From a virus, in the IMG/VR virus record IMGVR_UViG_3300035670_000237, positions 1-59,181 of that record: 59,181 bases of DNA; one strand, 5' to 3'. Below, one piece after another: positions 1,673-56,556 of the stretch (within the stretch, counting starts at the first letter, position 1; each line of letters opens with the position of its first letter). A program made the translations under genes and the position numbers. Below the pieces are notes generated by a model, which did no database searches, was not told where the DNA came from, and was given only the letters and a program-made list of their open reading frames with translations.

Positions 1673-4600
1673 CTACTGCGTCACCGCCTCCGACCGAATC
1701 ACTCTTTGGCGCTGAATCACCCGGACCCGTGAGTTCAGGTCGCGCATGGTCTCGGCGATCTGCTCGTCAACCTCGCGCATGCGGTCGCGGTAGCCCTCGG
1801 GCTTCTGCGTGGCAAGGTCGCGGCGCAGTTGGCGCAGCTCGCTGACACGGCGGCTGTACCGATCGGCGGCGCCGGCCAGTGCGGCCAACGGCTCGGCGCG
1901 CCGGAAGCCGTCGACGTCCTCCTGGTTGCGCGCGCGGCCCCTGAGCTCGTTCTCGACTTGGTTGATCGCCTTGACGTTCTCGTAGAACTGGTCGCTCTGC
2001 CCTGCGGTGCCGCGCGTGGTGCCCGCCAGGCGCCCGATCAGTGGCACCTTGTAGAGCGGCAGCTCGTCCCCGGTCACGGGGCTCGCAACCGTCGTCATCA
2101 ACTTGGACGTTTCACGCCAGACACCGCCCAGAAGCTGCCCGATCACATAGTCGATCTGGTCGGGCGTCGGGCTCCAGGCGCCAGGCTGGTACTTCGTGCC
2201 GCCGGTCACGGCGTTGATCGCCGTCGCCAAGCCCTTGCCCACCGGGCTGGCGGTGTCCTTGGTCAGTGCGGTGCCGGGCTGTGGATCAAGCGGACTGCGG
2301 TCCTCTCGGTAGATCGGCCGCCCCGTCCAGTCCTTGTTGTCGAGCAGCGCCACAACTGGGTCGACCACAGTTGGGGCAACCAACTGAGCCGGTGGCTGAG
2401 CTCCCCCCAGCGGGTTGAACGCATCCAGCAGCACCCCCATCAGCGCGCCCAACTGCTTGCCGGCGGTCTTGTCGCTGCCGCCCAGCGCGAACTCCACCGA
2501 CAGCCGCCCGATGTTGGGCAGGAAGTTGAAGCCCAGCGGCAGGGGCAGCGCGATGTAGTCCTTGCCGGACACCGGGATGATGAGGCTTCGCTCCTTGACG
2601 AAGTCCGGGATCTTGCTCCAGTTGTCGTCGTCCTCGTCGTCGTCATCAAAGCCACCCATGACTGCCATGCCTACCAGCGTGTTGATGGCGCCCAGCGCCA
2701 CACCGCCGGCCATAATCTTGCGGCCGGCTGGTCCCGTCAGCGTCTCGACCATGCGCGCGGTGCCCTGCACGGCCGCATTGAAGAACGCGTACCAGGCATT
2801 GATGTCGCGAGTCTTCTGGCCCTTGCGGTTGAAGTTGACCGTCAGGTTCTTGGCCAGGCTGGCCGCGCGCTCCCTGCTCATGCCCTCGTCCAGTGCGACC
2901 TTGTAGGCGGCGACGCGGACGGCGTTCTCCATCGACTCGTTGTAGTCGCTCAGCCAGTCGACGAATGCGTGCGCCACCCTCGACACCTGCCCGCGCTCCA
3001 GCGCTGCGACCTCCTTGGTCAGCGCCTTGGCGCGGTCCTCGATGTCGGCAAACAGGTCTCGGAAACCGGTGGTGCCGCCCACCTCCTCAAGGTCGCGCCA
3101 CAGCGCAACCCAGCGGGCATTGACGGGGTTCGCCGCGCCCTTGCCGCGCTCCTGGCGGTACACCGCGCGCATCGCGTGATGCACGCCGGCCAGTACCTGC
3201 CGCTCCTTGCCGGCCAGCGGCGTGGTGCTCAGGTTGAGCGCGGCGCTTCCCACGTCGCGCATGAAGTTGACGATGCCAAAGATCGGGTTGTATTGGGTGT
3301 TGACGCTGGCAAACCAGCGCGTGCCCACGGACACCGTCCGCGTCACCCAGCCCAGCTCTCCGATGTCTGCGGACTTCACCGCCGTGGCCAGCCGCACCGC
3401 CTGCGGGTTGCGCTGGTCGAAGATGATGCTGACGTCCTTGCCGCCGATGCGCAGCGTCACGACGTTGGGGTCTTTGCGGTAGGTGCCGTCCATCTCGCGC
3501 CGCACCGTGCCCGTCACCGGGTCGAGGTACTTGCGCATGGGCGGGCTGCCGATACGCCAGAAGTCGCGCAGCGGGTTCTGCCCCACCAGCAGGTACAGAC
3601 GCTGCAGCACGAGGTTCTTCTCGCCCCGCGTCAGCGCCGCCTCGCGCTGCATGGCAATGTGCGCCAGGATGTTGGTGACGCGCTGGTTGCTGCCCACGCG
3701 CTCGCGCACGCCTGAGCCGCGCACGTTGAAGCCTTGGCCAATCGGGTGGCTTTGGCTGTCCGGGTGGGCCTCGTCGCGGTGCAGCGGGATGTAGTGCTGG
3801 TACTGCGCCCGCCAGGCGTCGGCGGTCTGCCGGTTGACCAAGCCGTAGCGCTCCAGCGATTCCAGGGTCTTGGCGTTGATGCCGTCCACCTGGGCCGCCA
3901 GGGCGTCCAGGTCGGAACGCTGCGCCGGCGTCAGTGCGGCCATGACGGCCGCCGCCTCGGCGTCGCTCATGCCTGAGAGCGACAGGCGCTCGTCCTCGGT
4001 GCCAGGAAACGGCTGCATGCGCCGCACCCCGGCCAGGCGCTCCTGGTGCTGGGCGACGGCCTGCTCAAGGGCCTGTGTGGCGGTGCCTTGGGCCATGGCG
4101 CGCTGCAGCAGCACCCGTACGGCCTTCAGTTCAGCCTCGGCCTGCAGCTCCAGCGCGTCCAGCTCGGCCCGGCTGGGGTTGCGCTGCGCCATCGCGGCAT
4201 TGGCCTCGGGCGCGTGGCGGGCGTGCAGAAAGCGCTCCAGCGTCTCGAGATCCACGCCGCGCGTCTTCATGTCCTGCAACAGCGGCCGGAACTCGTTGGC
4301 CAGAAAGTCCTCGGTACGCGTGGCCAGCCGCTTGTGGAACAGCTCCTCGCCCAGGTAGGCGTCGTTCAGGTCGCTGATCGTGCCGCCCAGGGCCTGGATG
4401 CGCTCCTGAACGCGCTTCAGGTCGATGAAGCGGTCCTGCAGCTTGTAGCGCAGCGCGTCCCAGCCCTCCATGCTGGTGAGGTTCATCACCCGCTGCTTCA
4501 GGGCGTGCCAGCGGTTGCGCTGCACCGGGCCGGGCTGCGGCGGGGGGGTGGGGCCGATGGAATTGCGGCTGAACATGGGCGTGGCGTTGCCGTCATCGCC

Positions 4601-7600
4601 AGGCTCTGCCATACTGGCGGGGCTTTCCGCTCCCGCTGGGCTGCCTCTCTGCGTAGAGTCCCGGCGCGTAGCCCCGCCCAGTGATGGGGGGACGGCATCG
4701 GAGGCCAACGACCCAGCCCCCATTCCATCGCGGGAGAGCGAAGCGGCGGATTGCGTAGGCGCAGCGGCAGCATAACCGGCCGGGCGCGCATCTGGGTCGA
4801 TCTCGAATGCGGTGATGATCCAGGCATTTGACCCGGGGTTCTTCACCAGCCCGACCCGATAGCCATCGTGCTCGATCTTCACCGAGGTCGATGAATTCGA
4901 TTCGACTCGCTTGGTCTCGGCGCCGGAAGCAACCGCGCGAACCATCTCCGCCAGAACCCGCAGAGCCTCGGCCTCAGTGAGCCCGTCCTTACGCATGCGG
5001 GCCTCGATGATGTGTGACAGGCCGCGGCCTCCGACGGTTCTGCCAGACGACTTGACCTTACCCTCGTCGCCCCACACGAAGTCCACCCACCCCATGCCGC
5101 TGCGGAACATGGCGCGGTGAACGGTGGTCTTGCCGGTGACGGCCTCGGCCAGCGCGCGCAAGCCGCGGTCGATGTTGGCGGTGACGCTCTTGGTGGCCGA
5201 ACGGCTCAGCGCCACGGCCGGCGTGCGCGCGCCGTCAGCGTTCGCCCCCATCGCGCCCCGCTCCACCCACCCCCGCGCCGGCAGGATGTAGCTGCGGATG
5301 ATCTCGGCGTCCGTCAGGCGCAGGCCCTCGAGGCCGGGCACGTTCTGGCGCAGCCAGGTGCGCAAGGCGGCCACGGCGCGCTTCACGAAGCCCAGTTCGG
5401 GCTGGGCCTTGGCCATGTCGGCAAGGATTTCCTCGGCCACCTCGCGCCGCTCGCGGCGCAGCAAGGCCACAGCGGCTGACTCCAACGCGGCGCCCGACAG
5501 CGGCTCCATGCCCGCCTGCCGGCGCAGGCTGTTGACCCGCTCGCGCGAGGCGGCCAACGTCAGCACCTTGCCGTACTGCGCCGCCTTGGGTCGCATCAGG
5601 TCGGGCCGCGCCAGGCCAATCTGGTCGAGGATGCCGTTCAGGGCATCGCCAAAAACGGCGCGCAGCCCGTAATGGCCCAGCACTTCGTGGAACAACGCCT
5701 CCATCGCCTGGCGGGGCGACGCGATGCCGTCGGCCACCAGGTACACCACGCCGTCGTAAAAGAACCCATCCGGCGAGCCGGTCGCGCCAGCCTCGCGCTG
5801 CGCAGCGTCCTCGTCGCGCACGGCTTCAGGCACGCGTGGATCCTGCATCGACTGCACCACCACGATGGACGGGCGCTGCGCCCAGCGCGACACCACGGCA
5901 TCCACCACCGACTGCACCGATGCCGACGACATCAGCCGCGCGCCACCGGCACGGCTGAACGCCGGCTTGCCGGGCTTGGACTCGCCCAGGCCCAGCACCT
6001 CGCGCGCCACATCCGGGTTCGACCCCGGCATGAGCTTGATGTCCTGGCGCCCGGTGAGCAAGTGCTCCACCGCCCGCTCCAGCGCAGCCTCGCTCACCGA
6101 AACGGCGGACATCAGGTTGCCGCGCTTGTAGAAGTCCTGGCCAAGGGCTCGCGTCAGCGCCTTGTCCAGGTAGAGCTTGCCGCCTTCGCGCTTGGATGCG
6201 GGCGTGGTCAGCGTGAACTTGCCACCACTTGACACGATGCGCAGCGCGCCGGTGCCATCGACCACCACCGCACCATTGCCCGCGCGCCGCAAGAACTCCA
6301 TCACCCGCGCCGGGGTGCCCAGCGACAGACTTGACCCGCTCTTCTTGGCCTTGTCAAAGTCAAACCCACGTCGCATCAGCACGCCCTGGGCCACGCTGCC
6401 GTCGTCGCGGGTGTAGCTGACGATCTGGCCCGGATACTTGGCAAACCCCGCCAGCAGGTTGCCAGTCACCATCCAGCGCCGCTCGCGCCGCACGTTGCCG
6501 GCCGAGTACAGGTCGAACAGGTCTTGAACCGCCAGGGTGCGCGAGCCGCCGTCGTCAGTGGGCAGGCTGATGTTGGCGCTCTGATCGCGCACTGTGAAGG
6601 CCCGCCCGATCTGGCTGGCTGTCAGCGTCAGCGAGCGTGCGTCGCCGTTGGCCAGGGCAATCGTCATCTTCCATGACGAGCCGGCCGACGGGTTCTTGGT
6701 GGCGCCGGTGTTGCTGATGGCGGTGATGACGCCATAGGTGGGCACCTGCTGGGCATCCAGCACGGTGACGCTGTCGCCCACCGCGTGACTGCGCAGCATC
6801 GCCTCCACCAGGTTCTTCTGCAGGTTCGCGGTCTCCACCTCGCGCTGTGTGCGCATCGGGTCGGCACCGGCAGCCTCTCGCCTGGCCCTGAGGTCGGCCA
6901 CAAAAGCCGCATGCCTCTTGTTCAGGCCAGCGATGAGCTCGGCCGCCAGCTGCGACGCCGTCTTGTCGCCAAGCGTCTGCGCCACGGCTGCGGCCACCTC
7001 GGCGCGCGTCATGGGCTTGACGGTGCGCGCCACGTCCACCTTCTCCATGTAGGAGGGCTCGGCAAAGCGCGACGTCATGGCCCGGTTGTCGCCCTCGCGC
7101 GGGGCAGTGATGGCCTCGCTGCTGAGCGTGCGAGCGCCCAGGTCCAGCGCCCGCGCCTCCAGCTTGTTGGTGCCCATGGCGTCTTCGCGCTCGATGAGCT
7201 CGGTGTAGCGCTGCACCAGGTCGGCGTACACGGACTCCTGCTGCTCAAGCGGCAGGATGGGGATGTAGCCCGTGAGCTTGCGAATGAGCTCGTCGTCAGC
7301 CTTGGTCACATCGTCCGGTACCGGCAACCGCTCGTTGCCGCCCAGCGCTGCGTGGATCTCAGGGTTGTCCATCAACAACTCGGCGGCCACCTGCCCGCCG
7401 TAGTTGTTCATGAAGTCGACCACGCCCTCGGCCGTGACCGCGCTTTTGCGGCTGGCTGTGGTGTTGGCGTTCAGCGACGCCATCTTGTTCATCAGCACCG
7501 CTGCCGGGCGCATCTCGGCCGGGATGTCGGCCATGGCCTGGGTGTAGTCGGGCGTCACCACCTGCCCGGTGCGGTGCACACGCCCGAGCATCTGCATGTG

Positions 7601-10600
7601 GGTGTCGATGTTCTTCTCGGCCTGCACGATGATCATGCGCCGCTTGCGCTGATCCTTCACCTTGTCCGAGGCGTGAAGCGACAGGCCCGTGGATCCCGAC
7701 TGGTTGAGGATGATCGCGTCGATGTCGCCGTTGTTGAAGCCCCGGATGGCGCGCAGACGCTGGCGAATGTCAGCGTTGCGCCCGGCCAGCGTCGGCACGG
7801 TGCCGCCGCCGTAGTTGACCGTCATGCTGCGGCCGGTGATCTCGTCGCTGCTGAAACCGGCCGCACGCAGCCGGTCGTGCATGAAGTCGATCGGCGAGAT
7901 GGGCGCTGCGCCGAAGCCCGCGCGGCCGATGAAGTCGGCCGTCTGCTGGTACTGGCGCACCAGCACCTCGCCCAAATCGTTATCGGTGAGGCGGTACTCC
8001 TCGTCCGCCTGGCTGCCAGGGCGCTTGATCTTGACGATGCGCTGCTTGTCCAGGTAGCGCAGGTACAGGTCACGGAACGAAAGCGCCACCGGCTCGCCGG
8101 AGCGCAGGCCCATGTCCTCCGCGTAGTCCTTCAGGAACGAACCCATGGTGTTGGACACGGTGAGGACGACCTTCTCGCCGGCCTTCAGCCGCTCGATGGC
8201 GTACTCCACCGAGTTCTGCACCTTCAGCGCCAGCAGCATCTGGTCGATGAGGTTGTGCATGATGGCGCCGAAGTTGGCGCCGGCCACCGAGGTCTTTTCG
8301 CCGCCCACCGATCGCACCACGGCGGCCTCTTTGTCGAACGCCTTTTTCATCGAATCGACGGCCGCCTCCTTGGCGCGCGAGAACGCCAGGATCTGCCGCA
8401 TCGCGGTCGCCATGTTCTCGGCGGTGGCCTTGTCCACCGTGGTCTTGCGGGTGTCGTAGCCCACACCGGCGAATGTGCGCTCGCGCCGGATGTACTGCCC
8501 GTCTTCGGTCAGCATCGTGGCCACGATCTGCTGCATGGGCACGCCGCCCTCCTGGATGGCCGGCGCCAGGTCGATCGGCCGGTCCACCGCCAGCATCATG
8601 TTGGTGCTGGAATACAGGTCCATCACGTCCGGCCGCTTGGCATAGGTGGCCGAGCTGAAGAAGCTGCCGGCGGAGTTGCGCACCAGCTCGCGCGCAAAGC
8701 CCGCCCGGCCAAGCTTGTTCTCGCCGTCCGCCTCGGCCTCGCGCGCCTCCTTGGAGCGCGCCTGCCGGGTGGAGGTGCCGCCCGCGTTGTGGCTTTCGTC
8801 GAAGATGACGTAGCCTCCATCGGCAAAGCGCTGCAGGAAGCGCATGCGCGCGGTGGCCTTGCCGGCCACGGTCTGCGTCTGGCTGTAAGTGGTGAAGATG
8901 ACCTTGTACTCGCCCAGGTTGCCGCTGGCGGCCATGCCGTCCAGCAGCTTGGCCAAAGCTTCCTTCTGTGCCGGCGCGCGCAGCGTGCGCTCCAGCTCCA
9001 CCGCCTCGCCATCAACCTCGCGGCGCAGCGCGTAGGGAATCGACTCGCTGCCGTTGGTGATCAGGATGGCCGAGCGCTGCGCCTGCAGCCCGAGCTCGTC
9101 GGCCATGCCGATGTCGTCCAGGTCGCGCACCATGTCGGCGTACAGGTTCGGCTTTTCGGTGATGAACACCGGCACCTTGCCGCTGCGCAGCGCGTAGCGG
9201 ATCATCGCGGCCACCACGCGGCCCTTGCCGATGCCCGTCTGGTCGCCAATGACGAAGCCCGCGTCAGACTCGGCGTTGTAAATGGCCAGGGCCAGCGCAT
9301 CCACCTGCTCGGCACTGAAGTAACGGCCAAGCTCTGCAGTGTCATAGCCGAGCTTGCCGGCCACGTAGGTGTCGATGTCGCCAACGGCCTCCTGCACACG
9401 GGCCAGCGAGGCCAGCACCGCGTCGCGCATGCCGCGCGGCACCAGCGTGCCCACCGAAGCCACGCTCGAGGCGGGCGCGTACGCCACCTGGGTGGCGGTC
9501 TCCTGTTCCTGGCCCCGGCGGTCGGCCGGCCGGTTCAGCGCGGGCTCATTTCGGCCAGCGCCATCTCCACCCACGCCAGCAGGTCGGTTTCCTCCATCTC
9601 CTCGAGCAGCCCCTTCATTCGCGGCGTCATTCGCGCCGGCACCTTGGCCGGGAATGGGTTGCGGTAGCTGTTCATTGCCAGGCTCAGCACCGTTCGCAGC
9701 TCCAGGTTGTGCCCGAACAGGCTGCCCCCCGCGTGGTACGGCTGGTCGATCGCCATCAACCCCATTGCCGACAGCGCCCGGTTGGCGATCTCCAGACCGT
9801 CCGGGTCGCGCGCCGTCATTGCGTTGATCCGGTCCTCCAGGGCGAACCGCCACCGCGACTCCGTCAGCTCCTCGCCCGCCGGGACCATCACCGCGCACAG
9901 CCCCGGCTGCACGAACGGCGGGCACCACGGCACCATCGCTTGCGCCTGGTTCGTTGGCGGCGTTGGCTGGGGCGACTGCGGTGTTTGCGGCGTTGCCATC
10001 AATCTTCTCCTTCAGTGCGGCCCACGAATCGTAGCGCGCAGGCAACTCGGCGGCCGGCATCGCGCGCGTGGCCTTGCCGCGCCCGTTGATGACGATCACG
10101 TCCACCGGGTAGCTGGCACCCTGCCGCGCGTAAAGGCCACCGTCGAGCGTGAAATGGTCGGTGACGTTGTACTGCTGGTAGAGCCGGAAGTAGAACTCCC
10201 GCTTGGCCTTGGCGCGATAGCCCTCGCGCAGCGCCTCGTCGCTGGTGGCGTTGACGCCGCCGACGATCAGCACCGCGCGGCCGTCGTCCTTGAGCGCCTG
10301 CAGTGCGCGCAGCGCAATGGCGTGATCGATTTCGCGCGTGCCGTAGTTCGGCGCGGCGGCCCAGATGATCGGCTGCCCGTCGTCGTCGCGCACGACGCCG
10401 AACGGCGGGTTCATGAGCTCCACATCCAGCGTGCCGGCTGGCGCCATGTCAGACGTGGCGGCGTTGTTCTGCGTGACGGTGAAACCAAGCGCCCGGGCAT
10501 TGGCCGCACGCTCGTCGTTCAGCTCGTTGACCACGGCATCCTCGGGCGCCACCTCCAGCAGCAGCATGGTGTTGCCCGCTGTGGGCTCGCCCACCCTGTC

Positions 10601-13600
10601 ACCAGGCTTGACGCCCGCCAGGCGCGACGCCAGAAAGGCCAGCGGCACAGGCGTGCTGTACGCCTGCTCACGCACGCTGGTGGATGAGCGCATGCCCAGC
10701 GTCGGCTGCAGCCCGTACAGGTTGACCAGGCGGTCGTAGATCACACCGTCGGCGCGTCCCTGAGCACGTGCGGCCTGCACGATCTCCCGCGCAGCCAGTA
10801 CAACGGCGTTCTCCACCGTCTCGTCGGCCCGCTTGGCAGCCTGAGAACCCGGCTCGACGGCCTGCCCGGTCAGCTCGGCAATAACCTTGCGCGCCTCGAC
10901 GATGGTCTTGAAGCCGTCGCCGCCGATGAAGAGGTCAGCAATGGCCTGCGCCAGGGCCTGCCGGCCAGCAGCCGTGCCCAGGGAAGGGCTGGCCGCTGCG
11001 CCAGGCCGTGCTGGTGCGGGAGCTGGTGTGGGAGCTGGTGTGGATTCCTCGGCCTTCAGTGCGGCATCGATGTCCGCATCCTCGACATCGGCCGCACGGT
11101 CCATGTCGGCCTTCAAACCAGCCGCGCGCGGGTCGTTGCGCACAGCCAAGTACCAGGACACGAGGTAAGGCTTCACCGCGTCGCCCAGGTCGTCCACCAT
11201 TGCCCGGGCGTAGGCAGCGAATCGGCGCGCGCCGCGCTCGATGTGATACCCCGCCAGCGTGATGCCGTCCAGCATCGTCTCGGGGTCGATGCCCGACTGC
11301 AGTCGCCCGAGCTTCTTGCGCAGACGCTCGCGCGCCGCATTGGCCGCCTCTTCCGTGAAGATTGTGTTGGCGCTGCCAGGCGGGGTGGGCGCTGGCGCCT
11401 GGGCTGGTGCCTGGGCTGGTGCCTGGGCCGGTGCCTGGGCCGGTGCCTGGGCTGGTGCCTGGGCTGGTGCCTGGGCCGGTGCCTGGGCTGGTGCTTGGGC
11501 CGGTGCTTGGACTGGTTCCGCTGCAGGCGGAATAGGCGCCGGAGTCGGCGCCGGAGTCGAAATCGCCTCCGCGACAGTCGGATCGCTCGACGTGCCAATG
11601 ATGCCGCGCAGCTTCGTGCGCACCGGCTTGGGCATGTTGTTCCACAGCACGCGGTCCGGCAGGCTCTTTGCGCCGACCTGACTCAGCGCGGCGCGCTTGC
11701 CGGCGGGCGTCATGGACTGCCACCACGCCTCGGCCGCGGCGTCATCAGCCGGCGCCCCAGGCTGCTGCCCAGGCGCGCCGGCCGGCGGGTTCACCGCATC
11801 GGGGGCTTCTTGCCCCCCTTGCCCTTCTTGCCGTAGCCCATTGGCTGCTCCTTGCTGAGTTGAGGCCGCGCTTGGAGCCGGGGCGGCCGGTGCCGGCTTC
11901 TTCCTGTACCGCACCACGTCGCGGTCCATGTCCCACGAGGCACCTGGCTCTCGGGCAACCTCGTACTCGCGATCCGGGTTGGCTTGAAAGGCCGCGTTCA
12001 CCGCGATGTTGAAGGCTTTGCGGTTTTGCAGGTCAGATTCGAACGTGCCGCGCTTGAGAGTCTGGCGGTACAGCTCGGTGAGCGCGCTGTCCTCAACCCA
12101 CTTGCCCTCATCAAAACGCTGACGATCCAGCTGCTGCCGGCGCTGGCGGCGACGGTCAGCATCAAGACGCTGAATCAACTCACGGACCTCACGCTGCAGG
12201 CGCGACGTGCCCTCGAAATTCCGCTCCGCGTCGAAGTACTCCTCCTGCAGCACGCCCTCGGCCGCCTCAATGCTGGGCGCGTTGCGGATGCGATCCAGCC
12301 GATCCGCCTGGCGAGATTCGTAGGTGTCTGTTGCGGTCGTCGCGGACGGTTGCGCAGCGGCCGGTGCCGAAACGTCTACTCCGCTGCCGGTGGCTGCTGC
12401 ACCTGCGCCCTGCGCGCCAGTTCCGTCCGCGCCCTGCGGATCAGAGCCTGCCCGTTGCGAACCAGCTCCAGGTCGTTGTCCAGCTGGCCCATCTGCAGCT
12501 GCATCTGACCCAGGCGCAGGGCCTGCGCCGGGAAGTTCTCCACCGTTCGCGGCAGGCTCTTGGCCTGTCTGGGCTGGCTGGGCTGCTGGGGCTGCTGGGG
12601 CCGCTGGAGCGCCGGGTTGGGATCCTGCGACATTGAGGTCATTGGGGACATTGGCGGCTCCTTCGGCAGCGTTGTTCAGAGACTGCAGCGCTTGCAGCGG
12701 GGTGGGCGCGTCATCGAACAGGCCCATGCCCGTACCAGCGGACAGCGCCGCATTGACATACCCGTCCAGGATGGACGCCACCTTCTCGCGCCCGCGCGCC
12801 CGCGTCAGGTTCTGCCCGCCGTAGAGCACGCGCAGCGCCTCCACGGTCAGCTCGTCGGCCGGTCGGCCGGTTTCCAGGTCGACCTGGTTGGCCATGTCCA
12901 ACAGGCCCTTGCGGCCGCGTCGGGCGGTACGCACCATCTCCACGGCGCGCATCAGGTCGGCGGTGATGTCGAAGCCTGGCTCCACCACACCCGAGCGCGC
13001 CATGTCGCGCATCAGGGCCCAGCTGCCGGCCGCCTGGCGCAGCGCGCCGCCGATGGCCGAGATGTCGGTGTCGTTGCTCTCGTACAGCTCACCCACCAGA
13101 TCAGGGCGGTCGTAGGCATTGGCCAGCAGCGCAGCCTCCATGCGGCGGCGACCATCCTGCGACAGCATGCCGTCCGCCGTCATCAGCGTGGCGGTGTCCT
13201 GACCGATGCCGCGCAGCCGACCGACGAAGCCTCGCGCAAAGTCCAGGTTGGCCATGGCGTCCATGTCGCCGCCGCGGTACAGCGACAACAGCCCGGCATC
13301 AATGAGGCGGGCGTCGCCGGCGGCAAGCTCCTGCGCCGTCAGTCCCATGCCCTGGCCCTGGCTCTTGGCGGCCATGTTGGCGGTGTTGTCGCGCTCGGAG
13401 TACAGGCGCACCAGCACAGGACGCTCAAGTTGCGCCACCGCGGCCGGGTCCACGCCGTGGGTCTGCGCATCGGCCACCAGCTCGGCCTTGTAGCGCTCGG
13501 CCGTGCCGCGCTGCCAAGCCTCGCGCAGGCCGGCCGTGCGGCCATTGTTCAGCGCAATCAGGGTTCCCGGCGTCTGCTGCGCAAAGGCCGGATTGGCGCT

Positions 13601-15346
13601 TCCGTCGGCAAAGTTGGATGGCTGCAGCACAGCGGCATCCACCACGGCATAGCGAAACGGCACACGCTGACCATCGGCCATCACAGCCACGTCCTCGCGG
13701 CCCAGGGCGGATGGCTGCACGGGGGCGCCCGCATCTCCCACGGCGAACACCATTGGCGCACCCGTGTCCGGCGAGCGACTGGGGCCCAGGCGCATGTAGT
13801 CCGGATCAGCGGCAATCTGCTGCATCTGCGCCACCGACGCCGCGCGCGTTCGGTCTCGGTTCTGCAGGTTCTGGGCGGAGTCGTCCACCGATGGCGGGGC
13901 GCCACCGGTCGCCGGGGGTGTTGCAGGGGGCGGTACCGGCGCCGCGTTGGCCAGCGTGGCCGTTGGTGCAGCCGGTGACGCCGCGGGTGATGCCCCGGGC
14001 GGTGCGGGCGGTGGCGCGGACAGATCCGCATCCGAATCATCCTGCAGCCGCTGCAGCAGGCCATCGAGCTCGCTTTCCTCGGCGTCGGTAAGTGCGCGGG
14101 TCTGCGACAGCAGCATCAGCGTGTTGATGCGCTGCATGTCGTCTGGGCTGATGAATACGGCCGACAGGGGTGTGGCGGTTCCGGACGAAGCGGGCGGCGT
14201 TCCAGGGCCGGATCCCGGTGGCGTAATGGGCGGCGTTCCAGGAGTGGCCCCAGGAGCACCTGGAGCACCTGGAGCACCTGGAGCACCTGAGGCACCTGAG
14301 GCCTGCGCCGGACCACGCGGGCCCATCAGGCCGCCCTGCGTCGCCACATCGACGCCCCCGCCCAGGCCAAAGCCCAGCAAGCCGGCCACGGCCAGCTCCT
14401 TGGCGGCAGATGTGCCGCTCGGCACCTCGCCCGTGCCGACCGCTCGGCCGGTGATCTGGCCTGCCGTCTCGCCAATCTCCTGGGCTCCCTCACGCAGGCC
14501 TGCGCCCAGCGCCTGGCCCGTGCGCTGCACGATGCCCTGCGACGCCACCTGCTGGCCGGTAATGGCTCGCGTCAAGGCGCCCTCGGCACCGCCCCGCGTG
14601 ATGAGCCCAGCCACCACCGAAAACGGCACCGTGATGCCTGCGGCCACGTAGGCGCGATCCATCGGCGCGCCCTTGTCCAGCAGTTCGGCGAAAGTGTCCG
14701 CCGCGTTCTGTGCCGCCACCGTGCCGGTGCCAGCCCATTGCTGGGCACGCGCCACGCGGCTGGCCAGCTCAGCCCGGCCCAGTGCCTGCGCGCCCTGACC
14801 AACCGTGGCCAGACGACCGGCCGCCGCACCCACGCCAACCGGCAGGAACATGCTGCCGATGGTCGGCAGGAACTGGTCAGCGATGGCGCCCTTGTTGCGG
14901 CCCAAAGCCTGCAGCACGCCCACGGAGTCGTCCCGCATGTCGGCTTCGAAGTTGGTCCGCTGCGCTGCAGCACGGTCCGAGCCAACCACCTGGCGGATGG
15001 CTTTCATGCCCCGCTCCATGGCCCTGGAGGTATCGCCGCCCACGCGGTCGCCTGTGGCCAAACGCGCAATGTCGGCCACGCCCTTGACGGCGGTCGGGCC
15101 GATCTGCAGCACCCCAGCCGCCGCGTCCTGCGCAACGCTGCCAACGCTCAGTCCGGGAACGTCAACGCGCGGGTCCTGGTAGTCGTCAAACTGGTCAAAG
15201 AAGTTGCCTGCAGCGCCTTGCTGCATGACCTGGTCGCGCACTGCGGCCTGGGGTGCGGCAGCAGACGGCGAGGCTTCGGCTTGCGTGGTCGCGGCCACAC
15301 CCGAAGCGTCGTCGTCATCGTCAAAGCGGTCGAAGTAGTTGGCCAT
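1673..15346 (-). CDS. Giant polyvalent protein: ParB-like, N6-adenine methylase, strawberry-notch helicase, peptidase-like and nuclease-like domains (DarB-type)
   Basis: A single uninterrupted frame encodes 4,557 aa, 23% of the genome. Visible parts in order: two short NYFDRFDD/NFFDQFDD motifs and a glycine-rich hydrophobic stretch (to about residue 340); a ParB/DdrB-like domain (about 510-680); low-complexity linkers including nine PAQA units near 1280-1320; an adenine methylase with NPPF near 1645; a superfamily 2 helicase of strawberry-notch type with GDQTGIGKG (about 2034), FDESH (about 2180) and GRVHRTGQ (about 2585); an HEVLGH zinc-peptidase-like motif (about 3220); a PBECR-like nuclease domain with GRGLSHI (about 3440); and an LPD38-like C-terminus with a membrane segment near 4220 and an acidic patch. 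Phage P1 DarB, with methylase and helicase parts, is packaged and protects incoming DNA from restriction. I infer the same role here. It is the last gene of the late operon. Confidence 0.88.
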   Translation of the reverse strand: MANYFDRFDDDDDASGVAATTQAEASPSAAAPQAAVRDQVMQQGAAGNFFDQFDDYQDPRVDVPGLSVGSVAQDAAAGVLQIGPTAVKGVADIARLATGDRVGGDTSRAMERGMKAIRQVVGSDRAAAQRTNFEADMRDDSVGVLQALGRNKGAIADQFLPTIGSMFLPVGVGAAAGRLATVGQGAQALGRAELASRVARAQQWAGTGTVAAQNAADTFAELLDKGAPMDRAYVAAGITVPFSVVAGLITRGGAEGALTRAITGQQVASQGIVQRTGQALGAGLREGAQEIGETAGQITGRAVGTGEVPSGTSAAKELAVAGLLGFGLGGGVDVATQGGLMGPRGPAQASGASGAPGAPGAPGAPGATPGTPPITPPGSGPGTPPASSGTATPLSAVFISPDDMQRINTLMLLSQTRALTDAEESELDGLLQRLQDDSDADLSAPPPAPPGASPAASPAAPTATLANAAPVPPPATPPATGGAPPSVDDSAQNLQNRDRTRAASVAQMQQIAADPDYMRLGPSRSPDTGAPMVFAVGDAGAPVQPSALGREDVAVMADGQRVPFRYAVVDAAVLQPSNFADGSANPAFAQQTPGTLIALNNGRTAGLREAWQRGTAERYKAELVADAQTHGVDPAAVAQLERPVLVRLYSERDNTANMAAKSQGQGMGLTAQELAAGDARLIDAGLLSLYRGGDMDAMANLDFARGFVGRLRGIGQDTATLMTADGMLSQDGRRRMEAALLANAYDRPDLVGELYESNDTDISAIGGALRQAAGSWALMRDMARSGVVEPGFDITADLMRAVEMVRTARRGRKGLLDMANQVDLETGRPADELTVEALRVLYGGQNLTRARGREKVASILDGYVNAALSAGTGMGLFDDAPTPLQALQSLNNAAEGAANVPNDLNVAGSQPGAPAAPAAPAAQPAQTGQEPAANGGELPGAGPAPGSDAAADGPAGQRPGAGSQRAGSDPQGADGTGAQGAGAAATGSGVDVSAPAAAQPSATTATDTYESRQADRLDRIRNAPSIEAAEGVLQEEYFDAERNFEGTSRLQREVRELIQRLDADRRRQRRQQLDRQRFDEGKWVEDSALTELYRQTLKRGTFESDLQNRKAFNIAVNAAFQANPDREYEVAREPGASWDMDRDVVRYRKKPAPAAPAPSAASTQQGAANGLRQEGQGGQEAPDAVNPPAGAPGQQPGAPADDAAAEAWWQSMTPAGKRAALSQVGAKSLPDRVLWNNMPKPVRTKLRGIIGTSSDPTVAEAISTPAPTPAPIPPAAEPVQAPAQAPAQAPAQAPAQAPAQAPAQAPAQAPAQAPAQAPAPTPPGSANTIFTEEAANAARERLRKKLGRLQSGIDPETMLDGITLAGYHIERGARRFAAYARAMVDDLGDAVKPYLVSWYLAVRNDPRAAGLKADMDRAADVEDADIDAALKAEESTPAPTPAPAPARPGAAASPSLGTAAGRQALAQAIADLFIGGDGFKTIVEARKVIAELTGQAVEPGSQAAKRADETVENAVVLAAREIVQAARAQGRADGVIYDRLVNLYGLQPTLGMRSSTSVREQAYSTPVPLAFLASRLAGVKPGDRVGEPTAGNTMLLLEVAPEDAVVNELNDERAANARALGFTVTQNNAATSDMAPAGTLDVELMNPPFGVVRDDDGQPIIWAAAPNYGTREIDHAIALRALQALKDDGRAVLIVGGVNATSDEALREGYRAKAKREFYFRLYQQYNVTDHFTLDGGLYARQGASYPVDVIVINGRGKATRAMPAAELPARYDSWAALKEKIDGNAANTAVAPANAANEPGASDGAVVPAVRAAGAVRGDGPGGRGADGVAVAVRPGGPDQRNDGARPGRSGDRQPGAVGNGVDGDRPAVPRGGQPVRAQPGAANGAEPGNEQLPQPIPGQGAGANDAANEGAARGDGGNRPAGVGGDGAGRNEPALNRPADRRGQEQETATQVAYAPASSVASVGTLVPRGMRDAVLASLARVQEAVGDIDTYVAGKLGYDTAELGRYFSAEQVDALALAIYNAESDAGFVIGDQTGIGKGRVVAAMIRYALRSGKVPVFITEKPNLYADMVRDLDDIGMADELGLQAQRSAILITNGSESIPYALRREVDGEAVELERTLRAPAQKEALAKLLDGMAASGNLGEYKVIFTTYSQTQTVAGKATARMRFLQRFADGGYVIFDESHNAGGTSTRQARSKEAREAEADGENKLGRAGFARELVRNSAGSFFSSATYAKRPDVMDLYSSTNMMLAVDRPIDLAPAIQEGGVPMQQIVATMLTEDGQYIRRERTFAGVGYDTRKTTVDKATAENMATAMRQILAFSRAKEAAVDSMKKAFDKEAAVVRSVGGEKTSVAGANFGAIMHNLIDQMLLALKVQNSVEYAIERLKAGEKVVLTVSNTMGSFLKDYAEDMGLRSGEPVALSFRDLYLRYLDKQRIVKIKRPGSQADEEYRLTDNDLGEVLVRQYQQTADFIGRAGFGAAPISPIDFMHDRLRAAGFSSDEITGRSMTVNYGGGTVPTLAGRNADIRQRLRAIRGFNNGDIDAIILNQSGSTGLSLHASDKVKDQRKRRMIIVQAEKNIDTHMQMLGRVHRTGQVVTPDYTQAMADIPAEMRPAAVLMNKMASLNANTTASRKSAVTAEGVVDFMNNYGGQVAAELLMDNPEIHAALGGNERLPVPDDVTKADDELIRKLTGYIPILPLEQQESVYADLVQRYTELIEREDAMGTNKLEARALDLGARTLSSEAITAPREGDNRAMTSRFAEPSYMEKVDVARTVKPMTRAEVAAAVAQTLGDKTASQLAAELIAGLNKRHAAFVADLRARREAAGADPMRTQREVETANLQKNLVEAMLRSHAVGDSVTVLDAQQVPTYGVITAISNTGATKNPSAGSSWKMTIALANGDARSLTLTASQIGRAFTVRDQSANISLPTDDGGSRTLAVQDLFDLYSAGNVRRERRWMVTGNLLAGFAKYPGQIVSYTRDDGSVAQGVLMRRGFDFDKAKKSGSSLSLGTPARVMEFLRRAGNGAVVVDGTGALRIVSSGGKFTLTTPASKREGGKLYLDKALTRALGQDFYKRGNLMSAVSVSEAALERAVEHLLTGRQDIKLMPGSNPDVAREVLGLGESKPGKPAFSRAGGARLMSSASVQSVVDAVVSRWAQRPSIVVVQSMQDPRVPEAVRDEDAAQREAGATGSPDGFFYDGVVYLVADGIASPRQAMEALFHEVLGHYGLRAVFGDALNGILDQIGLARPDLMRPKAAQYGKVLTLAASRERVNSLRRQAGMEPLSGAALESAAVALLRRERREVAEEILADMAKAQPELGFVKRAVAALRTWLRQNVPGLEGLRLTDAEIIRSYILPARGWVERGAMGANADGARTPAVALSRSATKSVTANIDRGLRALAEAVTGKTTVHRAMFRSGMGWVDFVWGDEGKVKSSGRTVGGRGLSHIIEARMRKDGLTEAEALRVLAEMVRAVASGAETKRVESNSSTSVKIEHDGYRVGLVKNPGSNAWIITAFEIDPDARPAGYAAAAPTQSAASLSRDGMGAGSLASDAVPPSLGGATRRDSTQRGSPAGAESPASMAEPGDDGNATPMFSRNSIGPTPPPQPGPVQRNRWHALKQRVMNLTSMEGWDALRYKLQDRFIDLKRVQERIQALGGTISDLNDAYLGEELFHKRLATRTEDFLANEFRPLLQDMKTRGVDLETLERFLHARHAPEANAAMAQRNPSRAELDALELQAEAELKAVRVLLQRAMAQGTATQALEQAVAQHQERLAGVRRMQPFPGTEDERLSLSGMSDAEAAAVMAALTPAQRSDLDALAAQVDGINAKTLESLERYGLVNRQTADAWRAQYQHYIPLHRDEAHPDSQSHPIGQGFNVRGSGVRERVGSNQRVTNILAHIAMQREAALTRGEKNLVLQRLYLLVGQNPLRDFWRIGSPPMRKYLDPVTGTVRREMDGTYRKDPNVVTLRIGGKDVSIIFDQRNPQAVRLATAVKSADIGELGWVTRTVSVGTRWFASVNTQYNPIFGIVNFMRDVGSAALNLSTTPLAGKERQVLAGVHHAMRAVYRQERGKGAANPVNARWVALWRDLEEVGGTTGFRDLFADIEDRAKALTKEVAALERGQVSRVAHAFVDWLSDYNESMENAVRVAAYKVALDEGMSRERAASLAKNLTVNFNRKGQKTRDINAWYAFFNAAVQGTARMVETLTGPAGRKIMAGGVALGAINTLVGMAVMGGFDDDDEDDDNWSKIPDFVKERSLIIPVSGKDYIALPLPLGFNFLPNIGRLSVEFALGGSDKTAGKQLGALMGVLLDAFNPLGGAQPPAQLVAPTVVDPVVALLDNKDWTGRPIYREDRSPLDPQPGTALTKDTASPVGKGLATAINAVTGGTKYQPGAWSPTPDQIDYVIGQLLGGVWRETSKLMTTVASPVTGDELPLYKVPLIGRLAGTTRGTAGQSDQFYENVKAINQVENELRGRARNQEDVDGFRRAEPLAALAGAADRYSRRVSELRQLRRDLATQKPEGYRDRMREVDEQIAETMRDLNSRVRVIQRQRVIRSEAVTQ
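11400..11507 (-). repeat. Nine tandem 12-bp units encoding a (PAQA)n linker
   Basis: Nine back-to-back units of TGGGCYGGTGCY on the plus strand encode PAQA repeats within the giant protein, between the ParB-like and methylase parts. Differences between units are almost all silent C/T changes, so the protein repeat is kept while the DNA has drifted. Such runs are prone to slippage in whole-unit (in-frame) steps, so copy number probably varies between relatives. It is likely a flexible extended hinge. Confidence 0.85.
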
Positions 15347-24012: not shown

Positions 24013-24438
24013 TCACAGCCCCAGCTTGGCGCGCTCAGCACGACCCCAGGCGCGGCAAGCCTCCACGTGCGCGTTCCATGCGTCCGTCTCGTGCGACGGC
24101 GCGATGCGCAACATCTTGATCTCTTCGTCGACCGAGTAAACCTCGCGGATGCGCTGCACTACGCGCTCATCAATCAACTGCAGATGCGGGCTGCCTCGGC
24201 GAAGTTCGGCCTCGAGCTCAGGCGCCAGCGGAGTGGCCAGGGTCTCGATGCTTGCGGCGATTGGCGCAGGCTGCTCAGGCAGCGTCGCGCCGTCCGGGAG
24301 CGACACGACGGTGCGCCCGTCGGCAAGCGTCAGGAGCTCTTGGCCGACAGCCGCGCCGGGCTCGGAGGGCTCAGGCAGCCGAAGCTGGTACGTGGTGTAA
24401 GCGTCGGAAACCTTGCGGTAGGCGATCAAAGACGGCAT
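24013..24438 (-). CDS. Hypothetical tail-region protein
   Basis: A 141-aa protein with no recognised domain: a short beta-like start (MPSLIAYRKVSDAYTTYQLRLP), a middle segment listing ADGRTVVSLPDGATLPEQ, and a C-terminal helical part (ERVVQRIREVYSVDEEIKMLRI... WNAHVEACRAWGRAERAKLGL). The last segment resembles C-termini of small tail assembly proteins. Its 5' end overlaps the end of the reverse transcriptase gene by 68 bases in another frame, which ties it to the DGR transcript although it is probably a structural or assembly gene. Confidence 0.55.
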   Translation of the reverse strand: MPSLIAYRKVSDAYTTYQLRLPEPSEPGAAVGQELLTLADGRTVVSLPDGATLPEQPAPIAASIETLATPLAPELEAELRRGSPHLQLIDERVVQRIREVYSVDEEIKMLRIAPSHETDAWNAHVEACRAWGRAERAKLGL

Positions 24439-25390
24439 GGTGGTGCTCCTTCAAGTGGCGCAGGATGGGGCGCAGTGATGCGGTGCGGCAGGCGTGGCCG
24501 AGCCTGGAGACGAGGCTGGGCAGGCGATGCGCGCGCGCGTCGCGGCGGATCTGGCTGACCAAGTGCGGGCGCACGAACCGCGCCCGGGCCCAGGTGCGGT
24601 AGCCGCACCAGTTGACGCCGCGCCTGATCGGCTGCAGGCTGTGGTGGCTGATCTCCAGGTTCAGCAGTGCCAGATGCCGGCGGATGCCGTCCAGCCATTG
24701 CGCAGCCGTGGCCCGGTCGGGGGCGATCATCACGGCGTCGTCCACGTAGCGGGCGTATGCGGCGATCTTCAGCGTGCGCTTGGCGTACTGGTCCAGGCTG
24801 TTCAGGTACAGGTTGCTGAAGGTCTGGCTCAGCAGGTTGCCGATGGGCACGCCGGCCGCCTCGGGCCGGTGGGCAAACAGCATCGTCAGCTCCAGCGTGC
24901 GCGGGCACTTGACGATGCGCTCCAGCATGCCGCGCAGGATGTCGCGGTCGATGCTGTAGAAGTAGCGCCGCACGTCCACGTGCAGCGTCCAGGCGGTACG
25001 CGGCGCCCGGCGCATCTGGGCCTGCAGCCAGTCGGCCGCCTTGTGCGTGCCCAGGCCCTGCCGGCAGGCGAAGCTGGTGGCGATGTAGCGGCGCTCCAGC
25101 AGCGGCTGCAGCACGGCGTAGATGGCGTGCTGCACCACCAGATCCCTGAAGCTCGGCGCCTCGATCAGGCGGGGCTTGCGGCCGTCGCGCACCCAGAACC
25201 GGTGCAGCGGCGCGGGGCGGTAGGTGCCCGCCACCAACTCGGCGCGCAGCGTTGCAATGTGGGTGCCCAGGTTGCGGCCGAAGGCATGCACCGACCGGTG
25301 CGAGCGCTTGTTCTGGCGGGCGCGATGCCATGCCGCCAGCAGCGCCTCGGTGCTGACGATGTGATGGTACAGGTGCCCGGCGCGCTTCAT
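24371..25390 (-). CDS. brt: Diversity-generating retroelement reverse transcriptase
   Basis: A 339-aa group-II-intron-like reverse transcriptase. It copies the RNA of the template repeat with errors at adenines. Visible motifs from the ATG at 25390: RKPRLIEAPSFRDLVVQHA (motifs 1-2), DVRRYFYSID with catalytic Asp139, VPIGNLLSQTFSNLYLN (183-196), whose IGxxxSQ replaces the QGxxxSP of group II introns and is the DGR signature, and the active-site YVDD at 215-218. It lacks the X or En domains of introns. Length and N-terminus (MKRAGHLYHHIVSTEALLAAW) resemble phage BPP-1 Brt. A GTG at 25501 in frame would extend it, but the extra residues are not Brt-like. The order target-avd-TR-RT on one strand is that of BPP-1. 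Confidence 0.96.
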   Translation of the reverse strand: MKRAGHLYHHIVSTEALLAAWHRARQNKRSHRSVHAFGRNLGTHIATLRAELVAGTYRPAPLHRFWVRDGRKPRLIEAPSFRDLVVQHAIYAVLQPLLERRYIATSFACRQGLGTHKAADWLQAQMRRAPRTAWTLHVDVRRYFYSIDRDILRGMLERIVKCPRTLELTMLFAHRPEAAGVPIGNLLSQTFSNLYLNSLDQYAKRTLKIAAYARYVDDAVMIAPDRATAAQWLDGIRRHLALLNLEISHHSLQPIRRGVNWCGYRTWARARFVRPHLVSQIRRDARAHRLPSLVSRLGHACRTASLRPILRHLKEHHHAVFDRLPQGFRRLHHVPASAA

Positions 25391-25563
25391 GCTGCGGCCC
25401 GGCCTGGGGGTGTAGGGGCCACGGCGCCGGTCTTCGCCCGCGGGCTGGCAACACGGCCGGCCTGGGCTACCAAAAGACGCTGCAGCAGAACATTTCGGCA
25501 CCAGCCGCGACGGTGGCTCCCTCGTTGCCGCACGGCACTTGCCGCATGGGGCGTACCTGGCAT

Positions 25564-25680
25564 CGAGTCGGCGGCGAACCCCACGTTGTTGTTGGAGTTC
25601 GTGCGGTTGTTGTTCAAGTTGCGGTTGCGAACCCCGGCATTCGAGCCGTTGTTCCAGTTCCCGCGCGAGATCACACAGAG
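25564..25680 (-). repeat. TR: DGR template repeat (TR)
   Basis: This 117-bp segment is paired with 26234-26350 at a constant offset of 670 bp. Read on the minus strand it would encode the VR peptide with asparagine (AAC) at the variable positions. Within it all 13 Asn codons differ from the variable copy. I count 22 differences at template adenines and one at a non-adenine inside the core, plus one at the 3' edge. It lies 4 bases beyond the avd stop and 173 bases before the reverse transcriptase start, in a noncoding stretch, as expected for the RNA template. Confidence 0.96.
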
Positions 25681-25684
25681 CATG

Positions 25685-26170
25685 TCAAGCCACCACCGCA
25701 CCAAAGGCCCCGACAGTGTCGAGGCCCTCGGATTCAGGGCGCGCGGCCTCCTGCCCGCGCGCATTCTTGGGCGCGTCGCCGCGCAGTTCATGAGCCACCC
25801 AGCCGCCGATCATGCGGCCAAGCTCGTCGATCATCCGCGACAGCACCAGAAAGCGCCGCTCTCCCGGGGTCGTCGGGTCGGTCTTGCCGCCCGAGAAGTT
25901 GAACAACCCCAGCTCGTGCGCCAACACCGCCATCATGCGCAACTGCTCGTGCCGCACGTCCAGCTGGGTCAGCGCCGTCTTGCGATGGTGACGCTTCTGG
26001 CACTCGGTCACCAGGTTGTAGACGTCCAGATAGGCCTGCCGGATTTGCTGCGTCAAGGTGTACTTGTGGCAGTTCGGAAAGTGACGCAGATACCCCTCGA
26101 GCTGCACCGCGAGCAGCACCAGCTTGCGGTGCAGCGTCGCCTCAGCGTGCAGTCGGCTTCCGGTCGGCAT
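25685..26170 (-). CDS. avd: DGR accessory variability determinant (Avd)
   Basis: A 161-aa mainly helical protein. Avd of BPP-1 forms a pentameric four-helix-bundle barrel that binds template RNA and the reverse transcriptase and is needed for mutagenic retrohoming. Here the pattern is conserved: helices at HAEATLHRKLVLLAVQLEGYLRHFP, YTLTQQIRQAYLDVYNLVTECQKR, LDVRHEQLRMMAVLAHELGLF, and a last helix SRMIDELGRMIGGWVAHEL matching the I-A-E-V-G-R-I-L-G-S-W end of BPP-1 Avd. The ATG at 26170 has AAGGAG 9 bases upstream; an in-frame TTG at 26188 is less likely. It carries about 30 extra residues at the C-terminus compared with BPP-1. Confidence 0.93.
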   Translation of the reverse strand: MPTGSRLHAEATLHRKLVLLAVQLEGYLRHFPNCHKYTLTQQIRQAYLDVYNLVTECQKRHHRKTALTQLDVRHEQLRMMAVLAHELGLFNFSGGKTDPTTPGERRFLVLSRMIDELGRMIGGWVAHELRGDAPKNARGQEAARPESEGLDTVGAFGAVVA

Positions 26171-26224
26171 GATGGAGGTCTCCTTCAATCGGTCCAGGCC
26201 CTGTCGCTGTCGCTCAGGGCCACA

Positions 26225-27835
26225 TCACAAATACGAGGCGGCGGCGAACCCCACGGAGTAGCTGGCGTACGCGCGGGAGAAGTCCAAGGGGCGGAAGCGA
26301 ACCCCGGCACCCGAGCCGTAGGGCCAGCTCCCGCGCGAGACCACACAGAGCTCATTGCGCACGTACTGGTAGTAGTAGTCCTGGCCGAACAGGTTGGTGC
26401 CGCTGGTGCTGACGCCACCAGCCTCGGGCATGCCCAGCATGGCGCGGGCCCGGCTGGCGGCGTCGTCCATGTCAAACACGGCGTTGGCGCCGTTGCCGTA
26501 GCGCTGCGCGTAACCGTTGCTCGGGTAGGTTGTCGCAAACTCCAAATCTACAGCATCCATCAGCGCAGCCACGCCCGTGGCGCCCCAATGGTCAGTGGCG
26601 CCTGAGTTGCCGCCAGTCACCACGGCAATGTCCGCCGACTCTTTCAATGCGTACCACGTACCGACGGTGCAGTTGCCGCCGCTGGTGTAGGCGCCGAAGG
26701 CCGTGCTGTCCACGCCGTCCAGGCTGAAGGTGTCGGCATCGATGACAGTGACTTTGAAGAGCTTGCTGTTGAGCTGTGTCATGCCGCCCACGCTCTCGAT
26801 CATGGCCACCTGCCCCGTGGTGTAGCCGTGGCCCGCAATGGTGATGGCGCACGGGTTGGCCTGCGTCGCGCCCGTGATCGTCTTGGTTGCGGCAATGCAG
26901 GTCATGCCGATGTTGATCTTCCAGATGTTTCCGGCCACGTCGGTGATGCCGTTGGCCTGCCCGTTGTGCGTGGTCTTGGCAAACGGCACACCCGAGCCGG
27001 TGAGCGCGAAGTTGGCGTTGAACGCGGCGCCCGCCGTGGTGAACACCACGCTCGTGTCGCTGGTGTCGCGCAAGGCGTTGTTGTTGTTTCCGCGCGGCGC
27101 GCTCACGCCGCTGGCGACCCACCAGGCGCAGTTGGTGGCGTTGACTGCAGCCTGGGCGTGCGCCTCGCTGATGCGGGTCAGCGCATCAGCCATGAAGATG
27201 GACTCGGGAAAGAACCGCGATCCGCGCGACTTGGCTGCCGCGATGGCTCCGCCGTAGTTGTTGGCCGGCGTCTGACCATTGGCCGTGCACGCGGAGAACC
27301 CCGTCTGCCCCGTGCTGGGCCCGCTGACCACGGGCGCGGCCAGCGCGATGGAACTCGCCGTGCCGCTGTTGTTGGAGCAGTCGTACTTGTCGCGGAAGAA
27401 GCCCGCCTGGTTGACGCCGTTGTTCTTGAAAGCGCGGTGCAGGTAGTAGCCCTGGGCGTTGGCTGCGGCTTCGCTGGCGAAGAAGGTGAGCGGCTTGGTG
27501 TCGATGCTGTTGACGCCGAACGCCGCGTACGTCGGGTTGTCGACGTGCCCGATGCGCAGGTAGTACGCCGGGATCCACACCATGACGGATCCGTCCGAGA
27601 ACTGGTAGTTGCCGTACTGATCGGAATACGGGTTCTCGGTACCGGCCAGCTTGCTGAAGCCGCTGGGTACGCTGGGCGCAATGCCGACCCCGTAGCCGCG
27701 CAAGCCCGGCGTGCCGATGTGGTTGACCTGCGGCGCCAGCCGCGTCAGCTCCTCGTTGAGGTTGACGAAGTTGGCGTCGACCTCGGCATTGGTCAGTGGG
27801 GCGCCCTTGCCGGCGCGGGTCAGGATGTCGGCCAT
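26225..27835 (-). CDS. DGR target: variable receptor-binding protein with C-type lectin-like C-terminus
   Basis: A 536-aa protein. The start (MADILTRAGKGAPLTNAEVDANFVNLN) is a common phage tail N-terminus. The middle and end show a formylglycine-generating-enzyme/C-type-lectin-like pattern (AGTENPYSDQYGNYQFSDGS, MVWIPAYYLRIG, NNYGGAIAAAKSRG, PESIFMADALTRISEAHAQA). The last 40 aa (CVVSRGSW... VGFAAASYL) are the variable region. A beta-rich insert at about residues 320-395 (TITGATQANPCAITIAGHGY... NSKLFKVTVIDADTFSLDGV) resembles the FCCH-type domain seen in phage structural proteins and interrupts the lectin fold. It is probably displayed on the tail and binds the host receptor. Its start is 52 bases from the preceding gene. 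Confidence 0.93.
   Translation of the reverse strand: MADILTRAGKGAPLTNAEVDANFVNLNEELTRLAPQVNHIGTPGLRGYGVGIAPSVPSGFSKLAGTENPYSDQYGNYQFSDGSVMVWIPAYYLRIGHVDNPTYAAFGVNSIDTKPLTFFASEAAANAQGYYLHRAFKNNGVNQAGFFRDKYDCSNNSGTASSIALAAPVVSGPSTGQTGFSACTANGQTPANNYGGAIAAAKSRGSRFFPESIFMADALTRISEAHAQAAVNATNCAWWVASGVSAPRGNNNNALRDTSDTSVVFTTAGAAFNANFALTGSGVPFAKTTHNGQANGITDVAGNIWKINIGMTCIAATKTITGATQANPCAITIAGHGYTTGQVAMIESVGGMTQLNSKLFKVTVIDADTFSLDGVDSTAFGAYTSGGNCTVGTWYALKESADIAVVTGGNSGATDHWGATGVAALMDAVDLEFATTYPSNGYAQRYGNGANAVFDMDDAASRARAMLGMPEAGGVSTSGTNLFGQDYYYQYVRNELCVVSRGSWPYGSGAGVRFRPLDFSRAYASYSVGFAAASYL
26234..26350 (-). repeat. VR: DGR variable repeat (VR)
   Basis: This is the C-terminal coding copy of the template repeat, ending 7 bases before the end of the target gene stop codon. 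Differences from TR give Ser, Pro, Tyr, Gly, Phe, Asp and Ala in place of Asn or Thr. The 3' edge on the coding strand (GTGGGGTTCGCCGCC) is identical in both copies and GC-rich, matching the place of the initiation-of-mutagenic-homology sequence. Confidence 0.96.
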
Positions 27836-55435: not shown

Positions 55436-55489
55436 GGCCGATGCAATCTCAGCCCGCTGCACCGCCTGGCCGCCACCCTCCCGCGCGCC

Positions 55490-55804: not shown

Positions 55805-55807
55805 GGC

Positions 55808-56224: not shown

Positions 56225-56233
56225 GGGGCGGCC

Positions 56234-56413: not shown

Positions 56414-56556
56414 GGGCTTAATGTTAAACACTTCTGTTGTACTCCGCAAGAGCAACGCAACACGGCTGTTGCCTCGCTGCGCCCACGTGTGGCACACTCC
56501 GCCCGTCCTCGCACATCGGGGATGCGGGCTTGGCAGCCCGGTGGAATCCGCGGCTC

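Follow-up and report, generated by a model that had tools for sequence, protein, structure and literature searches.

The window is an entire virus record (59,181 bases) and very probably carries an intact diversity-generating retroelement (DGR) of a temperate, Bcep22/Lessievirus-like podophage, which diversifies the variable repeat (VR) of a tail-fibre gene and has a hairpin stem with tandem G.A pairs. A DGR in a temperate podophage is ordinary in kind; elements of such sort are already covered by metagenome surveys, e.g. Roux et al. 2021 (PMC8144416), which may include the one described here. The least ordinary part of the element is the hairpin that follows VR.

Organization of the DGR locus

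The minus-strand order is the target gene, VR, the hairpin, avd, the template repeat (TR), and the reverse transcriptase (RT) gene (Table 1). The original prediction of a target, Avd, TR, and RT on one strand was borne out, all being found at 24371-27835, as was the agreement of the gene order with that of phage BPP-1. Every part of its four-part inventory is present, but the hairpin 3' of VR had been overlooked.

Table 1. Features of the DGR locus and the adjacent phage gene
Feature	Positions	Strand	Details and evidence
Target gene	26225..27835	-	536 aa, receptor-binding/tail-fibre-type; AlphaFold2 (AF2) model and PDB/profile matches
E1-FCCH-like insert in target	26657..26899	-	about 80 aa (approximately aa 313-393); PF16190, alignment gap, fold
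VR	26234..26351	-	final codons of target; repeat search
C of VR opposite TR A (25568)	26238	-	putative IMH/IMH* discriminator; 71/71 comparable loci
Post-VR hairpin	26197..26221	-	GGCCCT-GAGC-GACA-GCGA-c-AGGGCC; 25-nt sequence, begins 3 nt past target stop
avd	25685..26170	-	161 aa from ATG (167 aa from TTG 26188); Pfam, PHROGs
TR	25564..25681	-	29 adenines, 13 AAY codons in the frame of the target; repeat search
DGR RT	24371..25390	-	339 aa, IGNLLSQ and YVDD; Pfam, PHROGs, tree
Phage gene outside the DGR	24013..24438	-	141 aa, 68-nt overlap with the RT 3' end; context

TR and VR form an ungapped 118-nt direct repeat with 80% identity and a spacing of exactly 670, the fixed offset that had been proposed, and the repeat search detected no third copy in the whole 59,181-base record. 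They differ at 24 positions, 23 of which are among the 29 TR adenines, the remaining one being a T-to-G difference on the coding strand; the adenine bias has a hypergeometric p = 6e-18 under random placement. The earlier count of 22 adenine positions among 23 core differences holds if the terminal A-to-C difference is left out, the full recount being 23 of 24. All 13 Asn codons of TR are changed in VR, in line with the earlier count, and in AAY codons adenine changes are unable to create a stop. Pooled over 71 related loci, TR/VR differences fall at TR adenines in 1160 of 1211 cases.

The boundary base could be compared in 71 loci with the same TR motif, including the window. In all of them TR has GAC and VR has GCC at the terminal site. 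By contrast, at the other TR adenines VR retains A in 43% of cases and has G in 29%, C in 15%, and T in 13%. The terminal A/C difference did not arise by mutagenesis but is a fixed feature of the TR/VR boundary. Since it is constant in 71/71 loci while the other adenines vary, the 3' limit of cDNA transfer most likely falls short of this site, making it an IMH/IMH* discriminator; such discriminators at the 3' end of VR and TR are known for BPP-1 and archaeal DGRs (PMC4372165).

The phage and its target protein

By gene content and similarity the phage is related to the Bcep22-like podophages (Lessievirus), because it encodes a P22-type portal, an SU10-type adaptor, and a 4557-aa polyvalent protein with ParB-like, helicase, and LPD38 domains, its virion gene order is that of Burkholderia phage DC1, and its proteins resemble those of DC1/Lessievirus (48% identity for the major capsid protein, 43% for the adaptor, and 31% for the internal virion protein). 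Identities of 31-48% point to a genus of its own, though a related one. The short tail that had been predicted is borne out by the portal and adaptor types, and the predicted temperate lifestyle by a tyrosine integrase, whose gene is split across both record ends. A 282-bp direct repeat (94.7% identity) is present at these ends, so the genome is most likely complete and closed, its imperfect overlap having been left untrimmed. DC1 has four tail-fibre genes in the interval ahead of the internal virion protein, the place that the DGR and its target take in the window.

As originally predicted, the target protein is longer than that of BPP-1, Mtd (536 versus 381 aa), and of different architecture; it carries an FCCH-like insert. 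Residues 37-536 constitute a conserved module bearing the C-type-lectin fold, and residues 1-36 a replaceable N-terminus: the target relatives in 20 IMG/VR loci mostly show 53-64% identity over aa 37-536 and have quite different N-termini. The target thus looks like a receptor-binding module that can be moved between interchangeable anchors. The relatives found through the RT have aa 37-312 and 394-536 in common, and most of them lack the intervening 80 residues, which match Pfam PF16190 (E1 FCCH, E 8e-11) and the fold of UBA6/UBA1.

The AF2 model of the target has a pLDDT of 94.5 with a 57-row alignment, against 41.6 with 13 sequences. Its best PDB match is TaqVP (5vf4, E 3e-15), which is also the sole match of the target profile among PDB sequences (E 4e-7). 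TaqVP of Thermus aquaticus is a DGR variable protein with a C-terminal VR in an FGE-type C-type lectin (PMC6328139), and the VR of the window likewise lies at the end of a target with a predicted C-type-lectin fold. The two proteins are 14% identical and differ in that TaqVP is single-domain, whereas the target has the FCCH-like insert and a phage N-terminus.

The post-VR hairpin

In BPP-1, homing requires a hairpin/cruciform directly after VR, and in every phage DGR listed by Guo et al. 2011 (PMC3240598) a GC-rich stem of 7-10 bp carries a 4-nt GRNA loop. The hairpin of the window consists of an outer Watson-Crick stem, tandem G.A/A.G, two Watson-Crick pairs, and a GACA loop. The 4-nt GRNA loop shortly past VR is thus present, but the stem is not a continuous 7-10 bp Watson-Crick helix, as G.A/A.G occupy pairs 3-4 from the loop and one C is unpaired. 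DNA folding of this hairpin yields 7 bp, an internal loop, and 2 bp; nearest-neighbour folding scores tandem G.A as an internal loop, and by DNA folding energies the G.A stems are weaker than Watson-Crick stems. Sheared tandem G.A pairs are stable in DNA. No Rfam family was matched in the region.

A G.A-type hairpin follows VR in 47 of the 71 loci, compared to 0.04 expected in shuffles, and in 60 of 90 loci when the search is anchored at the VR end and redundant and named loci are counted. On the RT tree, the RT of the window falls into a 59-row clade with support 100/100, with the BPP-1 RT outside; every G.A member is inside this clade, the 11 outside rows are all Watson-Crick, and at least seven to eight switches of the hairpin type are forced within it. 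The G.A hairpins of the clade comprise 38 distinct sequences; their outer stems are of 25 kinds, and the GRNA loop is kept in 37 of the 38. An example of the G.A type is TGATCTGAGCGATAGCGAAGATCA from locus L057. Several members have an outer stem of only 2-3 bp; when all paired positions are counted, these hairpins have 6-10, the same as canonical stems. In twelve named phages (BPP-1, Bise, VP585, BalMu-1, phiWae15, ACA1, YPCBV-1, ZX4290, H. ganmani prophage, 1F273, VHML, and phiARM81mr) the stem is Watson-Crick (or G-T) and 6-9 bp long.

A chance origin of the G.A hairpin is ruled out by the shuffles and by a motif scan blind to RT, in which an exact search of IMG/VR for CTGAGCGATAGCGATG produced 76 stretches. 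An outer stem of at least 4 bp was found in 40 stretches: in 34 a DGR RT lies at most 2.5 kb downstream, in four there is Avd only, and the remaining two are within 60 nt of a contig end, so that all 38 assessable sites with such a stem adjoin Avd/RT. The other 36 stretches lack this stem, and 28 of them have neither RT nor Avd.

Is the conserved tract a hairpin?

The conserved GAGCGAYAGCGA tract might form no hairpin and instead bind a protein sequence-specifically, act as a terminator, or signal avd translation, given that conservation of its 12-mer exceeds the needs of a stem and that the 3' arm contains the start codon of avd (GCGATG), followed by an open frame, in 24 of the 60 G.A loci. 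We consider this rather unlikely, and the case for a hairpin, beyond mere sequence conservation, rests on four points. First, the flanking arms co-vary: an arm forms on average 4.18 bp with its own partner versus 2.60 bp with exchanged partners, the maximum in 2000 exchanges being 3.18. The relatedness of the loci remains in this control, and the evidence from sister pairs is independent of it; outer pairs 1-2 are not counted as evidence, since in the census they are Watson-Crick by construction. Second, double changes in the outer stem distinguish sister lineages (L010/L016 and L087/L103), and the inner pairs change as well, from GC/GC to GT/AC in L097 and L107. Third, Watson-Crick pairs replace the tandem G.A at the same register in sister lineages, for instance GCC-GAGT-GATA-ACGA-GGC with G.A in L097 versus GCC-GCAT-GATA-ATGC-GGC in L077, and further swaps of GA/GA and Watson-Crick pairs occur between sister or near lineages (L043/L030 and L060/L050). 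Fourth, as noted above, the count of paired positions matches that of canonical stems. Conservation of the GRNA loop rule also argues against a tract without a hairpin, and the terminator was rejected because no T-run follows.

The avd start codon in the 3' arm of the hairpin may account for the unpaired T that is often present in this arm, and it suggests that translation of the target and avd could be coupled through the hairpin.

Activity and decay in related phages

Relatives with identical TR and 99-100% flank identity (contigs L070-L073 and L061/L064/L065) have VRs that differ at 10-18 positions, all of them template adenines. For instance, all 10 VR differences between L070 and L071 (flanks 100% identical) and all 13 between L061 and L064 (flanks 99.8% identical) are at adenines, and both pairs carry the G.A hairpin. 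The DGRs of close relatives are thus active in nature, with the kind of variation across a population that the original prediction expected. An exact search of IMG/VR with the TR of the window had no match.

DGR decay is also common in this group, since some close relatives have lost the RT or the whole cassette. Loci L017/L018 keep avd and have lost the RT; in L004, L014, L015, and L020 there is no avd-TR-RT and the target is directly followed by the 141-aa gene; and the 55-kb record of L020, whose capsid protein is 86% identical, contains no RT anywhere. The frequency of such RT-less relatives with a target would fit a recent inactivation of the window's DGR as well, with the sequence still intact and VR no longer diversified in the population. 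This is very unlikely, as the reading frames of RT, Avd, and target, the catalytic motifs, TR, the boundary base, and the hairpin are all intact in the window and 23 of the 29 adenines differ in its heavily diversified VR, whereas the hairpins of several decayed relatives (L004, L014, and L020) are broken or missing.

Reverse transcriptase and Avd

The two RT motifs named in the original prediction, IGxxxSQ and YVDD, occur in the protein as VPIGNLLSQ and YARYVDDA, and comparison with reverse transcriptase profiles agrees with this assignment (PHROG 1423, 4e-92; Pfam RVT_1, 2e-15), as does the position within the clade on the RT tree. The gene likely starts at ATG 25390 rather than at an upstream GTG. 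Searches for relatives with this RT alone returned one locus, and those with a profile, hundreds. Avd matches Pfam bAvd with 43.3 bits, compared to the gathering score of 40, and PHROG 3206 ("Avd protein of DGR"); its score of 54.5 bits with the NCBIfam Avd model (equivalog) is under the 80-bit cut-off. A group II intron, retron, or antiviral RT next to a chance repeat, as might be read from an NCBIfam group II RT match of 109 bits and weak DRT/retron model matches, has a negligible probability and is ruled out by the TR/VR pattern with its adenine bias, all such NCBIfam matches being under curated cut-offs and Avd and the gene order being of the DGR type.

Proposed mechanism and role of the hairpin

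By analogy with BPP-1, RT and Avd would copy the TR-containing transcript into cDNA with random bases at template adenines, and this cDNA would replace VR at the end of the tail-fibre gene by retrohoming. The outcome would be particles with differing receptor-binding surfaces on the FGE-type C-type-lectin domain. The fixed C/A difference at the 3' border of VR and TR would then label sequence that always escapes overwriting. The hairpin directly past the stop codon would designate VR, not TR, as the recipient. In this clade the stem of the hairpin holds two successive G.A pairs, with a variable outer Watson-Crick stem on one side and a GC/GC-GRNA tip on the other.

We find it reasonably probable that the tandem-G.A/A.G hairpin module (GAGC-GRNA-GCGA) of this large phage DGR clade is a distinct, undescribed target-recognition element, evolutionarily interchangeable with Watson-Crick pairs. 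G.A pairs in DGR hairpins are not mentioned in the literature searched, which did not cover Wu et al. 2018 (NAR), reportedly the main later survey of DGR hairpins. In the simplest view, the G.A pairs could stand in for two base pairs and preserve the stem length needed for homing. A more interesting candidate is that an altered groove or easier extrusion is what the RT/Avd of the clade reads; sheared G.A pairs would perhaps aid extrusion of the tip or present a shape for recognition by RT/Avd. Two cis determinants for telling VR from TR are known, one of them being the hairpin, and fixed non-canonical pairs that are swapped for Watson-Crick pairs in sister lineages make it possible to test shape versus sequence, and duplex stability versus specific contact. 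The G.A module also provides a DNA signature for finding such DGR targets without the RT.

Comparison with known systems

The phage shares the virion gene order and a DarB-like giant protein with Lessievirus (DC1 and others), which differ in having 3-4 tail-fibre genes at the place of the DGR and no DGR; the report on JC1 (PMC9144972) mentions no retroelement or reverse transcriptase. Like the published DGR target hairpins (PMC3240598), the hairpin lies a few nucleotides after VR, has a GRNA loop on the sense strand and 6-10 paired positions, and has an outer stem free to vary; it differs from the GC-rich stems of the published phage hairpins by its G.A/A.G pairs, and from the archaeal DUSEL4 hairpins (PMC4372165) by a 4-nt GRNA loop in place of their GRA triloops.

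A close parallel in organization is the BPP-1 DGR (mtd-avd-TR-brt), also from a short-tailed temperate phage, with which the element shares the gene order, a tail-fibre target with VR at its 3' end, adenine-specific TR/VR differences, Avd, an RT 34% identical to Brt, and a post-VR hairpin with a GRNA loop. The BPP-1 target is shorter and lacks the FCCH-like insert, its hairpin stem is 8 bp and fully Watson-Crick where that of the window has tandem G.A, and the phage of the window is otherwise Bcep22/Lessievirus-like. The element of the window is a new member of the DGRs, and its target hairpin looks like an undescribed variant.

Cassette content among related loci

The avd/TR/RT cassette is gained or lost as one unit among close relatives. 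In four related loci (L004, L014, L015, and L020), the target gene directly adjoins the downstream gene, with avd, TR, and RT all absent between them, and the L020 capsid is 86% identical to that of the window.

Two further loci, L017 (7491-8101) and L018, retain avd, while RT is gone; L027, located on a Lautropia MAG contig, was grouped with them, its match length and position being identical. The former TR of this group carries VR-like substitutions where other TRs have adenine, and its end resembles the C-terminus of a target; it looks as though overwriting had struck the template too, with RT lost afterwards.

In the target of another related locus, L106, the FCCH-like domain appears to occupy residues 93-166 (locus protein numbering), an insertion point elsewhere in the same target fold. 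It may be mobile as a decoration domain.

Genome ends and additional genes

The imperfect direct repeat at both record ends lies within a tyrosine integrase gene, whose frame is continuous across the end-to-end junction. The genome is probably closed, with a real length of about 58.9 kb.

Additional features of the window
Feature	Positions	Strand	Remarks
Terminal repeat	1-282, 58900-59181		282 bp, 94.7%
4557-aa single ORF	1673-15346	-	ddrB-like ParB, Strawberry-notch-type helicase, PBECR1 nuclease-like, and LPD38 domains
141-aa gene	24013-24438	-	68-nt overlap with RT end
808-aa ORF	55154-57580	+	residues 540-653 match anti-repressor Ant

The 141-aa gene, for which a search for a family match found none, is kept in relatives both with and without the DGR, and perhaps encodes a tail-fibre chaperone. 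The part of the 808-aa product upstream of the Ant-like residues has no matches. The 4557-aa product is a DarB-like polyvalent protein, similar to the one found in Bcep22-like phages.
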